Position numbers and translations under genes: made by a program. Of a stretch of DNA of 64,000 bases, positions 1,602-24,012 are shown piece by piece. Every line of letters starts with the position of its first letter. Position 1 is the stretch's first letter. The notes below the pieces were generated by a model that saw only the letters and a list, made by a program, of their open reading frames with translations, searched no databases and was not told where the DNA came from. Origin of the DNA: Chloroflexus sp. Y-396-1 (lineage in GTDB: Bacteria; Chloroflexota; Chloroflexia; Chloroflexales; Chloroflexaceae); contig NZ_KI911784.1 in the NCBI RefSeq assembly GCF_000516515.1, positions 1,644,881 to 1,708,880 of the forward strand, in the 5' to 3' direction.

Positions 1602-1630
1602 TTGACGAGTGCCACGGTTTCCGTTAGAAT
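1602..1630 (+). promoter_or_regulatory. Sigma70-type promoter for the 1734-3532 gene pair
   Basis: TTGACG (1602-1607), a 17-base spacer, then TAGAAT (1625-1630). It lies about 100 bases upstream of the ATG at 1734 and points toward it. The -10 box runs directly into the palindromic operator at 1628-1657, the geometry expected of a repressor-controlled promoter. Confidence 0.7.
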
Positions 1631-1657
1631 TAGAACAAAAGTTCTAATTTTAGAACT
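1628..1657. promoter_or_regulatory. LexA/DinR-like palindromic operator with three half-sites
   Basis: AATTAGAAC (1628-1636), four A residues, then GTTCTAATT (1641-1649) form a perfect 9-bp palindrome containing GAAC-N4-GTTC, the core of the Gram-positive LexA box. A third half-site TTAGAACT (1650-1657) forms a second perfect palindrome with AGTTCTAA (1640-1647). The cluster starts inside the -10 box of the promoter at 1602-1630, so a bound repressor would block initiation. LexA identity is inferred from the motif only; another winged-helix repressor is possible. Confidence 0.6.
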
Positions 1658-1733
1658 GTGCGATGCTGCTATCCGGTGGATAATTCCACCATTGCGTAAA
1701 CAGGATGGCACCTGCCAGTTAAGGAGGGCTGGA

Positions 1734-2240
1734 ATGGCCGTTACCAGTCGTGAAATCCCACCGGTGCGACAAGTTTACACCTTTGGTCGGTTGCTACGAG
1801 GCTTCATGCTCATCCTAGCCATCGTTGCACTGACGATGCTGATCAGTATCATCGCCGAATCTGGTCGTGTCTTCCTCGACGATTGGCGCTACGGACGACC
1901 ACGAACAACCCATTTATCCGGCTACGCTGGCTTACCTGCCGAACGATCTGGTCAGCCGTCACGATTCATTGCGCTCAACCTTGACCGACAAGTTATCATC
2001 ATCGTTATTCCTGGCGGTGATGTAAAACAACTACAAACCTGGCAGGGGCCATATCTGTTTGGGTTACACGAAGATCTGACACCTGTGGTATTATCGTTAA
2101 GAGATGAAGACCGGGATGGTCTGGCAGATCTGTTGGTGACCATTCACCAAGAACAACTGGTGTACCTGAACCGCGATGGCACGTTTCGATTACCGACACC
2201 AGAAGAATGGTATCGGCTAGCCCAGGAGCGGAGCAAGTGA
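1734..2240 (+). CDS. Small membrane-anchored protein of unknown function
   Basis: 168 residues. ATG at 1734 is preceded by AAGGAGG at ideal spacing, which favours it over an in-frame start further upstream. The protein has a short basic/polar N-terminus and then one hydrophobic segment (about residues 24-42, GFMLILAIVALTMLISII), probably a signal anchor with the C-terminus outside. The exported part ends in an acidic stretch RDEDRDGLADLL resembling the calcium-binding loops of FG-GAP/VCBS-like repeats. I recognise no family. Its stop overlaps the GTG start of the downstream glucosaminidase-like gene, so the two are translationally coupled and probably work together at the envelope. Transcription likely comes from the promoter/operator at 1602-1657. 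Confidence 0.75.
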   Translation: MAVTSREIPPVRQVYTFGRLLRGFMLILAIVALTMLISIIAESGRVFLDDWRYGRPRTTHLSGYAGLPAERSGQPSRFIALNLDRQVIIIVIPGGDVKQLQTWQGPYLFGLHEDLTPVVLSLRDEDRDGLADLLVTIHQEQLVYLNRDGTFRLPTPEEWYRLAQERSK

Positions 2241-3532
2241 GTACGTTCTCCAATCGCAAACAAAGAACAAGGCGGCTGGGGCAGCCCCTCTTCCCCATTG
2301 AAGATTCGGAGATCACGCACTTGCCGACACAGCCGCTCGCCGATCTTACTGCCGACCTTGACAGGGCCCTTACATCAGCGCAATCGGCGACACCTCGCGC
2401 AATGGAACCGCTTGGTCTGCAAATTCCGGCAGAGATTCAAGCAGCCTATGAGCGTACCCGTCAGTCGGTTCGTTCTCCTACACCTGCTTATCAGCCTCGC
2501 CAGCTTACCAATAGTCAAACAACCGATGCTGAACGTAGCACGTTAGCAACCGGTCGTCTGCCGCGAATATCTGAGCGCGAGCCGACAAGTGTACATCGAG
2601 CCGGTAGCGGAACCAACAGGTCGTATACGCCCCCTACCTTTGGCACGCGGAGGGCGACACCAGCGGGTATCCCGACAAACGTTGCCCCCTCGGATGGGGA
2701 AAGACCTACCTCGTCACGGCGACAATCTCCCACGCAAGACCCGGTGTCAACTGCCCTGGCAGTAGCTGAAAGACCTCGTGGCGAGCGGCCCAAGCCATTT
2801 ATACCGGCACCAACGGCGCCTGCCGATGAATTGGTGTTGCCGTTATCAACATACTACCAGACAGAGTCGCTATCGGCGGCGAGGTTGTTTAATCAGCCAA
2901 TCGTCATGCTGGTCATTGCGGTTGTCAGCATTGTCGTCATAGCACTATGGTTCATGATTACTTTTCCAGCACCGTTCCTGAGTCTCCAATATGCGGTTGG
3001 GAATGAGCTGACTATCGCGGGCAATATCGCATCGGCAACCAGACCGGTGCCAGCTCGCGGTGATTACCGATTACGTACTCCACCTAGTCTCTCACCTGAC
3101 CAGATTGATCAGATTTTGCGTAGTTATGGATCGCCGGCAACCGGTACCGGTGAAATCTGGTATCGTCTCGGCGTCGAATACAACATTGACCCGGCCTATG
3201 CGCTGGCGTTTTTTATTCACGAAAGCGGTGCCGGTACCAATCCAAATTGGGCCGGTTTTAAACCTGATGGCCGTACAACGCATAATGTCGGTAATATTAT
3301 CTGCGCCGGTTACCCAACATGCTATGGCCGCTTCCGTGATTACCCGGATTGGGCGACCGGGATTGCAGATTGGTATCGTTTAATAGATGTTGAGTATATT
3401 CGTGGTAGAGGTTTGCAGACGGTGACTGAGGTCATTCCAATCTATGCGCCATCTATTGAGAATGATGTTCAGGGCTATATCAACGTCGTTACCCGTCTAG
3501 TCGATCAATGGCGTGCAGGGAATATTCCTTAA
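2237..3532 (+). CDS. Membrane-anchored glucosaminidase-like (lysozyme-fold) protein
   Basis: 431 residues from GTG at 2237, which overlaps the previous stop (GTGA) and has AGGAG eight bases upstream; an in-frame start 30 bases earlier lacks this signal. Residues 1-210 are Pro/Thr/Ser/Arg-rich and probably disordered in the cytoplasm. A single transmembrane segment follows (about 220-245, IVMLVIAVVSIVVIALWF). The extracytoplasmic domain (about 290-431) resembles the mannosyl-glycoprotein endo-beta-N-acetylglucosaminidase (GH73-like) fold: FFIHESGAGTNPNW supplies the likely catalytic Glu, followed by NVGNIICAGYPTCYGRFRDY. It probably cleaves or remodels peptidoglycan-type glycans. A long cytoplasmic N-terminal tail is unusual for a secreted hydrolase and may be regulatory. 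Confidence 0.8.
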   Translation: MSTFSNRKQRTRRLGQPLFPIEDSEITHLPTQPLADLTADLDRALTSAQSATPRAMEPLGLQIPAEIQAAYERTRQSVRSPTPAYQPRQLTNSQTTDAERSTLATGRLPRISEREPTSVHRAGSGTNRSYTPPTFGTRRATPAGIPTNVAPSDGERPTSSRRQSPTQDPVSTALAVAERPRGERPKPFIPAPTAPADELVLPLSTYYQTESLSAARLFNQPIVMLVIAVVSIVVIALWFMITFPAPFLSLQYAVGNELTIAGNIASATRPVPARGDYRLRTPPSLSPDQIDQILRSYGSPATGTGEIWYRLGVEYNIDPAYALAFFIHESGAGTNPNWAGFKPDGRTTHNVGNIICAGYPTCYGRFRDYPDWATGIADWYRLIDVEYIRGRGLQTVTEVIPIYAPSIENDVQGYINVVTRLVDQWRAGNIP

Positions 3533-4085: not shown

Positions 4086-4739
4086 ATGCGCAACCTTTCA
4101 GTTCTTATTATGGCTGTCATCACACTGTTGGGATTTACCCTGTTCCAACACATGAACAGGGCCGAATCTCGCATACTCAGTACCTGGCGTGGACCGATCA
4201 GCACCGGTGAGACGCTAGCCGCCAATATGAGCGAAGTTCAGACCCTGACCGGAATGGCTGAACCGCAAGGACGAGGACTTGATGCAACACTCGTTCCGAC
4301 CGGTAACCCATTGCGAGCTGCCAATACGGTTATGACGCAGGGATATGGCGTCGGTACACACGCACCGGCATCCGTATGGGGGGCCATCGATCTAGCTATC
4401 GACGGAAATGGCGATGGGCAAGCTGATCCTGAAGGAACCTGGAACCATCCGGTCTACGCCACCCATGCTGGTCAAGTAAAGATCACGCTCAATAGCTGGC
4501 CGGCGGGTAATCACGTTTGGGTTACCAACCAGCTCTACCGTACCGGCTATGCTCACCTCGCCAGTATTGCTGTTAGTGACGGGCAGTGGGTCAAACCCGG
4601 TGATGTTATTGGATACGTCGGTTCGACCGGTATGTCGAGCGGTCCACATCTCGATTATCAGGTCTGGGTATGGCAAGATAACCGGTGGGTCAATCAGAAT
4701 CCGCTCAATTATCAGGTGTTTGAACAGCCAACCCGCTAA
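4086..4739 (+). CDS. LytM/M23-like exported protein with altered zinc ligands
   Basis: 217 residues from ATG 4086; an in-frame ATG 66 bases earlier has no better ribosome binding site. The N-terminus is a signal peptide or anchor (MRNLSVLIMAVITLLGFTLF). The C-terminal half has the M23/LytM beta-barrel layout: AIDLAIDGNGDG, then HPVYATHAGQVK, GYAHLASI, VKPGDVIGYVGSTGMSSGPH and LDYQVW. M23 enzymes use His-x3-Asp and His-x-His. Here the first His position is Trp (WGAID) and the second His of the HxH pair is Asp (HLD). Two of three zinc ligands therefore appear replaced, so the protein may be a non-catalytic peptidoglycan-binding or amidase-activating factor, as in EnvC/NlpD-type LytM proteins. 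The acidic insert DGNGDGQADPEG could bind calcium. Confidence 0.8.
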   Translation: MRNLSVLIMAVITLLGFTLFQHMNRAESRILSTWRGPISTGETLAANMSEVQTLTGMAEPQGRGLDATLVPTGNPLRAANTVMTQGYGVGTHAPASVWGAIDLAIDGNGDGQADPEGTWNHPVYATHAGQVKITLNSWPAGNHVWVTNQLYRTGYAHLASIAVSDGQWVKPGDVIGYVGSTGMSSGPHLDYQVWVWQDNRWVNQNPLNYQVFEQPTR

Positions 4740-23800: not shown

Positions 23801-24012
23801 GGCCAGCCACCCTGCGTAGCCAACATCGCTAAAGCGACCGTCTTACCACTTCCGGGAGGCGCCACAACAATGGTAAGCGGCGCTTCGAGGGCAATTGCGA
23901 ACAAATGTTCTACACGCCCACGACGCACACGGTGTAACGGCGCTGGTGGGGGCAGCAGACGGGGTCGCAAAAGAGATTCGTTATACTCACCTGTAACCGT
24001 TTGTGATACCAT
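20809..24012 (-). CDS. SARP/MalT-type ATP-dependent transcriptional regulator (P-loop, TPR, winged helix, BTAD)
   Basis: 1067 residues. The N-terminal STAND-type ATPase has Walker A VVAPPGSGKTVA (Lys57) and Walker B LLVIDDAHY. It is followed by helical LuxR/MalT-like and TPR repeats (about 350-800). An OmpR-type winged helix comes next (about 810-910; LRVQMLGAFRVWRGNQE, EWQREKARQLFQLLL, ERQFKVTLNTLNTAL). A C-terminal bacterial transcriptional activation domain (BTAD) ends ELGIEPLPETEALYRRIRQ. Such proteins sense a ligand, oligomerise with ATP and activate promoters. It is divergent from the phasin-like gene at 24084 with only 71 bases between them, so that gene is a natural target. I could not identify a Shine-Dalgarno sequence at the ATG, but the domain start supports it. 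Confidence 0.9.
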   Translation of the reverse strand: MVSQTVTGEYNESLLRPRLLPPPAPLHRVRRGRVEHLFAIALEAPLTIVVAPPGSGKTVALAMLATQGGWPAAWCRADASDDPRSLLRHLVAALSRVVSFADSNPPATIDALINALTSELDDETLLVIDDAHYIDERPELRSLIERLIVAQPPRLHLVLAGRREPDSPLIATARLRGEALVIEPTELAFTADEATALWQQAGRPLPPDFDELLALSAGWALALRIALDATDWRRALGLRDLPAPALDEYLEREVLASLPEPLRRCLQRSAGLRWIDPDVCTALDPSLQASLMITELRRRRLFVEPFGEQGLRFQPIIAAWLTRRAAADPEWPQLHRRAAAYFQQRGDHESALYHQIAAGDPTAVATFLPLARQLLAERRAEAVLDWMRRLSLAGDEAPELVEIQAAALHQLNRLEAALAAYRRAERAFAAMNDPLGQARCLRGQAAIYLDTVQPAPATDLLRRALKLLPRQYGAERIELLLMQAENWTNRGRPNVGERLAQTAYRLAREHGLIEFYQARAESLQPRLLLRSGRLREARQLLEERLWNEQSLMRATAHREPLLLLALISALLGSGPQALAFAHRMLSEAQQSNNPVTEAIAELRLGHAYQVIARGDDQAARQHYSRGLRLLQQVSVPRTRAEGYLGLTLLHGHAGDLARAEADAREGLLLAASAGDEWVAALFLLALGSVNLAAGDPRGYEWLDQAEQRFQAGRDTFGLFLVHLWRALAALRAGRTAMVEPLVAQVMQEAIEYGYESVLIGPSLFGPRDIAALVPLLLRARSLPAYREVAVQLLRQGFPSIASDDTVDDYHPGFTLRVQMLGAFRVWRGNQEIQAREWQREKARQLFQLLLTMRGNWIQREQICAWLWPEADLEAAERQFKVTLNTLNTALEPHRPPRVPPFFIRRQGLAYSFAPSFGVWIDVDEFELRASSALTSTDPDFARRSAQAALQLYRGDYLAEALYDPWTIEERERLLARYLATAIAYAEQLSTEGRHNEAIQIAEQVLRRDRCYEEAYQLLMRAHARAGSRSQAMRSYTRCVQALREELGIEPLPETEALYRRIRQNEPI

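Follow-up and report, generated by a model that had tools for sequence, protein, structure and literature searches.

A conserved LexA-type box at the promoter of a predicted envelope gene pair in Chloroflexus: a candidate SOS-inducible wall-remodelling operon

Most work on the outputs of the SOS response has used single-celled or mycelial bacteria as models. Among the closest described systems, the palindrome GAAC-N4-GTTC is given as the LexA box of the SOS regulons of Bacillus subtilis and Mycobacterium tuberculosis (PMC3323433), and YneA, SosA, DivS and ChiZ are presented as SOS division inhibitors of Gram-positive bacteria, ChiZ being reported to have wall hydrolase activity (PMC6851548). 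LytB of Streptococcus gordonii is described as dispersing chains (PMC5393624). Searches of an open-licence library listed no title or abstract start that dealt with LexA or the SOS response in Chloroflexus, Herpetosiphon or Ktedonobacter.

The window analysed here is a stretch of 64,000 nt from Chloroflexus sp. Y-396-1. It contains a sigma-70-type promoter on the + strand (−35 box TTGACG, 1602–1607; −10 box TAGAAT, 1625–1630; both read from the sequence and recovered by the promoter scan, with a 17 bp spacer and 10 of 12 matches), followed by the putative operator TTAGAAC-AAAA-GTTCTAA (1630–1647, no strand), which covers the expected transcription start and includes the LexA-type box GAACN4GTTC at 1633–1644. 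The half-site TTAGAAC occurs at 1630–1636 (+), 1641–1647 (−) and, after a TT spacer, at 1650–1656 (+), with base 1630 common to the first half-site and the −10 box. The arrangement described in the earlier note, a −10 box fused to three TTAGAAC half-sites including GAAC-N4-GTTC, is present in the sequence; its palindromes, called perfect there, are so in their 7-bp arms but not in their centres (AAAA and TT), which are not palindromic. A ribosome binding site (AAGGAGGG, 1721–1728, +), whose AGGAG is kept in the seven genus orthologues aligned, precedes gene 1 (1734–2240, +). In the genus the third half-site does not hold its place, though two or three boxes are present at some other copies of gene 1. 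The centre of the window box is AAAA, the commoner centre being ANNT.

The half-site alone is ordinary, because the window holds five TTAGAAC against 4.2 expected, but three of the five lie inside 27 bp. The core GAACN4GTTC appears twice in the window, against 0.98 expected, and the 18-bp operator form TTAGAACNNNNGTTCTAA once in the 4.89-Mb genome, with 0 for its control. Genome-wide, GAACN4GTTC is not enriched (52 occurrences versus 51 for the backwards control); we consequently rejected its bare genome count as evidence, and any claim for the 8-base core must rest on position and conservation. The second site in the window (GAACAAATGTTC, 23899–23910) sits within a 1067-aa reading frame and was taken as a chance occurrence.

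Relatives of gene 1 were found in 38 of the 41 genomes of the order Chloroflexales that were searched, our own included, usually in two copies each, giving a set of 76 copies from 38 genomes after three fragments (G009:C513, G025:C1:40494 and G017:C612) had been dropped. A perfect GAACN4GTTC lies within 250 bp upstream of 43 of these 76 copies, spread over 27 of the 38 genomes having copies; dinucleotide shuffles (n = 300) gave a mean of 0.24 and a maximum of 2, and the control palindromes CAAGN4CTTG and GTTCN4GAAC were found at none of the copies. The 33 copies without a perfect box include all eight of one divergent clade in the tree. Within the genus Chloroflexus the perfect core occurs at 14/14 gene 1 copies, in seven of eight genomes, no gene 1 copy having been found in the eighth (82% complete). 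Gene 1 copies that are followed by gene 2 carry a perfect box in 24 of 30 cases and one with a single mismatch in three more. Distinct AGAACANNNGTTCT sites number 13 in the eight genus genomes, and eight of them precede members of the gene 1 family.

The placement of the box is also informative. The sequence AGAACANNNGTTC stands immediately 3′ of the −10 element in 7/7 Chloroflexus orthologues aligned, and among the 43 copies with a perfect box this lies between the −35 and −10 elements in 26 and directly after the −10 in nine, a placement that would suit a repressor blocking the polymerase. The seven of these 43 copies without TTGAC in range correspond to the genus paralogue, in which three elements bracket the promoter. 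This solitary second copy of gene 1 shows, as an observation of its own, three LexA-box-like elements around one promoter in the 7/7 genomes aligned (L146, L137, L140–L143 and L145).

An unbiased ranking, in which 2816 inverted-repeat patterns were scored by genera and no pattern was chosen beforehand, was applied to 65 gene 1 copies from 23 genera, the other 11 of the 76, two of them with a box, being omitted as lacking a recognised start. It placed AGAA-N6 (15 genera), GAAC-N4 (13) and AACA-N2 (11) at the top, the next pattern reaching six. The gene 1 family extends beyond the order: in a sample of 301 Chloroflexota genomes, 52 contain a member, and 21 of those 52 are from one family assigned to the class Ktedonobacteria. 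The 34 ktedonobacterial loci reduced to 28 different upstream regions, where the same 2816 patterns were led by AGAA-N6-TTCT (11/28), GAAC-N4-GTTC (9/28) and TAGA-N8-TCTA (8/28), with the next at three. The palindrome, whose conservation the earlier note had proposed as a check, is kept at the gene 1 family across the order and at relatives in a second class. At the level of sequence, this conservation provides decisive support for the putative operator.

The ktedonobacterial gene 1 proteins have long N-terminal extensions and occur in several copies per genome (loci L222–L239 and L301–L319). Gene 2 was not found beside the gene 1 relatives in 16 named ktedonobacterial loci, and the box therefore goes there with the gene 1 relatives only; the wall gene pair formed by genes 2 and 3 was found in Chloroflexales, not beside these relatives.

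Gene 1 encodes a 168-aa protein, with a conserved N-terminus (MAVTSRE), that the earlier note took for a membrane protein; the one long predicted transmembrane (TM) helix agrees with that description. The model of the protein (pLDDT 87.5) predicts a single helix at residues 13–53, the predicted TM segment, and a two-blade FG-GAP-like beta domain at about residues 56–155. The window protein matched no curated family above cut-off in the family scans; FG-GAP_3 matches 28 of 44 gene 1 family members at E 0.01 or better, the window member remaining below the cut-off. Among known folds, the model comes closest to the FG-GAP blades of integrin-alpha (VIA: Z 9.0, rmsd 2.5, 89 residues). The fold match is modest, because a Foldseek search found nothing at E 0.001 or better; likewise, a profile search of the PDB sequences was empty at E 1. 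The predicted domain would share the blade fold of the FG-GAP/integrin-alpha beta-propellers, but it has two blades only. In the own genome (G000), gene 1 (1,646,614) and its second copy (2,767,367) are neither of them next to lexA (2,728,331).

The start codon of gene 2 (2237–3532, +) overlaps the stop codon of gene 1 (GTGA). As the earlier note had proposed, its product is predicted to be a membrane-anchored, glucosaminidase-like protein, with a Ser/Pro-rich N-terminus, a TM segment and a glucosaminidase-like domain of the GH73/LytB type. The family model PF01832 matches 28/28 members at E 0.01 or better, the window protein itself scoring below the cut-off (22.6 bits for the whole protein and 24.1 for the domain, versus 30.2). 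The Glu of an AFFxxES motif is invariant in 28/28 members and, by analogy, would be the catalytic-type residue. The best match of the domain model is pneumococcal LytB (Z 17.0, rmsd 2.7, 143 residues), followed among other folds by AtlE (Z 13.5) and SagB (8.4). These predictions suggest that gene 2 codes for a probable peptidoglycan glucosaminidase, that is, a wall-cutting enzyme.

A third gene (4086–4739, +) follows gene 2 in the window after a gap of ca. 550 bp. Of the 31 named loci having gene 2 (80 loci in all), 28 have this third gene behind it. Its product is M23/LytM-like (PF01551, 70.6 bits versus a cut-off of 28.7; NCBIfam matches from 4.2e-15, all under the equivalog cut-offs). In the positions that we take to be the M23 zinc ligands, HxxxD and HxH, the His of HxxxD is replaced by Trp in 29/29 aligned rows, and HxH reads HLD in 23/29 and HLH in 6/29. 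The product of gene 3 is probably not an active peptidase, because Trp replaces the first zinc-binding His in every row; its sequence points to a LytM-type protein that is probably non-catalytic. Gene 3 may be co-transcribed with the pair in relatives where it is close behind gene 2.

The own genome encodes one LexA over cut-off, with the LexA DNA-binding and S24 domains. In 8/8 genomes of the genus, the lexA promoter contains two sites one mismatch from GAACN4GTTC, namely GAACAAACGTAC or a variant of it and AAACAAGTGTTC, one of which sits inside the −35/−10 spacer. Near the promoter, none of the seven recA regions read in the genus has a site with one mismatch or fewer; their sites, of the type GTACATATGTGC and GCACATATGTAC, are two mismatches away with the same spacing and register, and around the −10 box they take the forms GTAC-N4-GTGC and GCAC-N4-GTAC. 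In many other genera the recA site reads GAAC-N4-GTGC. In the recA promoter of the own genome (L106), a long inverted repeat, TCGTACATATGTGCTATAATAGCACATATGTACG, also has the −10 box at its centre; it recurs, with a few bases changed, in the six other genus promoters read. The lexA and recA boxes, for which the earlier note had suggested a check, are degenerate forms and not another design, because spacing and register are the same. Neither of the two results that the earlier note had named as refuting, another LexA box at these genes or a palindrome that is not conserved, was thus obtained.

The unbiased rankings over genera of the order agree with this. For lexA we read the upstream regions of 36 of the 41 genomes (L005 and L006 were omitted as near-copies, and three genomes were without a locus), and for recA the ranking used 30 of the 39 genomes over cut-off. 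When one mismatch was allowed, AACA-N2-TGTT came first at lexA (21/26 genera) and GCAC-N4-GTGC at recA (16/19 genera, with GAAC-N4 in 11/19), and these top patterns share the register of GAACANNTGTTC. Perfect GAACN4GTTC is rare at both genes (lexA, 1/26 genera, rank 153; recA, 1/19, rank 119); the leader among perfect patterns at lexA was CTTG-N6-CAAG (13 genera), a pattern that overlaps the −35 box. Six further recA regions, outside the ranking, contained GAAC-N4-GTGC in three and nothing in the other three. A second lexA set of 16 out of 17 loci (14 from Ktedonobacteria and one each from two other families; L327 was left out) had a box within one mismatch in 15/16 promoters and a perfect one in 2/16 (rank 32), the leading patterns with one mismatch being AGAA-N6 (16 of 16), GAAC-N4 (15) and TAGA-N8 (14). 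In the second recA set, the near-match GTAC-N4-GTTC was seen in 11/16 regions, and it carries little weight, with ten of them situated ca. 300 bp upstream within a 650-bp search region.

The search for the box at uvrA, also put forward in the earlier note, gave a half-site only, with no two-sided box within one mismatch in the ten upstream regions. The gene uvrA is not part of every SOS regulon. For imuB, likewise named there, no promoter was available to compare, since no Y-family DNA polymerase (PF00817) was found in the eight Chloroflexus genomes, although the same model matches 11/14 control genomes. A LexA-type box is also present in the promoter of a small DUF6504-like gene (L182:3332–3631, corresponding to G000:C1:654331–654630), a label that derives from sub-threshold Pfam matches in two relatives; perfect GAACN4GTTC occurs in 18 of 25 relatives (L367–L391, of which L375 was not placed properly), and this gene is likely a further SOS gene and member of the regulon. 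Separately, GAACAAACGTTC at L059:1001–1012 (G000:C1:3207825–3207836) lies directly after a TTGACA-TAGGAT-like promoter and before a Uma2-family gene, a possible further LexA target.

Taken as a whole, the locus is best explained as a LexA-controlled, SOS-inducible wall-remodelling operon, a reading to which we assign a probability of about 0.78. The operator, its retention alongside the gene family, the motif shared with lexA and recA and the order of the genes can be read directly from the sequences compared, the folds being predictions; the sequences support both the observation in the earlier note and its main suggestion, DNA-damage control of wall genes. We infer the remaining steps, namely LexA binding, induction, membrane topology and enzyme activity. 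A LexA dimer on the operator just downstream of the −10 element would block transcription of genes 1 and 2, and DNA damage would lead to RecA-stimulated self-cleavage of LexA and free the promoter. Gene 1 would then supply a small beta domain, and gene 2 a peptidoglycan glucosaminidase, on the outer side of the membrane; together the two could modify or cleave the wall, at the septum or laterally, and so change division or filament continuity during DNA repair. Any effect on division or on filament splitting, be it a halt to division, looser septa or a cut filament, is conjecture; filament separation becomes more plausible because the predicted fold of gene 2 is LytB-like.

Several other explanations of the operator were weighed. 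A chance origin of the palindrome, which the unenriched core might suggest, has a negligible probability, given that conservation at orthologues and paralogues far exceeds both the shuffles and the control palindromes. It is also very improbable that the true target of the operator is the divergent gene on the minus strand (start at ca. 1432, running off the left edge), with gene 1 as a bystander: the intergenic region is common to both genes, but the box is also found before the second copy of gene 1, which is solitary and has other neighbours, and before the ktedonobacterial relatives, and the window box sits at the + strand promoter identified in the scan. More serious is a repressor other than LexA, either family-specific or responding to envelope stress, that would read GAACN4GTTC. 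The best sites in the genus are those of gene 1 copies while those of lexA and recA are degenerate, and uvrA is without a two-sided box, as this explanation would have it. Yet the unbiased ranking yields the same palindrome in the same register at lexA and recA, and nearly all lexA promoters of the second set match within one mismatch; besides, E. coli as a rule has a weaker site at lexA than at its late SOS genes. We consider such a repressor improbable and LexA the very likely regulator, the remaining doubt being another reader of the same site.

A further explanation keeps LexA control and differs in the output: gene 1 would be an SOS division inhibitor like YneA or SosA, and gene 2 would only adjust the wall, with no filament splitting. 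Being a variant of the preferred reading, its confidence overlaps with that of the operon as a whole, and we give it somewhat less than even odds. A single TM segment with an outside domain is described as the common plan of the Gram-positive SOS inhibitors (PMC6851548), and gene 1 also occurs without gene 2, in Chloroflexus as its second copy and likewise in Ktedonobacteria; against it, the family scans give no LysM or other link to those proteins, and gene 1 is not beside lexA in the genome. At the other extreme stands a dedicated SOS output that would have the gene 1 family at its core and be shared by two classes; in Chloroflexales, a damage-triggered LytB-like glucosaminidase and its membrane partner would cut the filament, splitting off or isolating damaged cells. 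We regard this as unlikely, and its scope is narrowed because gene 2 was not found beside the ktedonobacterial relatives; if true, it would amount to a multicellular DNA-damage response.

To return to the preferred reading of a LexA-controlled wall-remodelling operon, envelope genes that fall into no curated family carry some of the strongest LexA-type sites that we found in a deep, largely filamentous phylum. One of these genes is paired with a probable wall-cutting enzyme. This offers a way to test whether damage to the genome is linked to remodelling of the wall. Gene 1 emerges as a new candidate SOS division or separation factor, unlike SulA or YneA in fold and gene order.

The locus can be compared with the described systems in turn. 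With the LexA regulon of B. subtilis and M. tuberculosis it shares the palindrome, the 4-bp spacing and the overlap with the promoter, as well as the presence of the motif, in degenerate form, at lexA and recA. It differs from that regulon in that the boxes of an envelope gene family are among the strongest, those of lexA and recA are weaker variants, and no Y-family polymerase was found in the eight genus genomes. Gene 2 has in common with the GH73 enzymes of the LytB/AtlE/SagB type a predicted lysozyme-like fold and the invariant Glu, but it is predicted to be membrane-anchored, with a long Ser/Pro-rich N-terminus, a LexA-type operator and gene 1 as a partner. The resemblance to YneA, SosA, DivS and ChiZ would consist of LexA-type control, one predicted TM segment, a predicted outside C-terminal domain and a link to the wall. 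Unlike these inhibitors, to which the family scans gave no sign of homology, gene 1 shows no LysM match, has a predicted two-blade beta domain, is not beside lexA and usually occurs as two copies per genome, one of them in an operon with a glucosaminidase. The best reading is that the operon represents an unrelated analogue of YneA, SosA and ChiZ.
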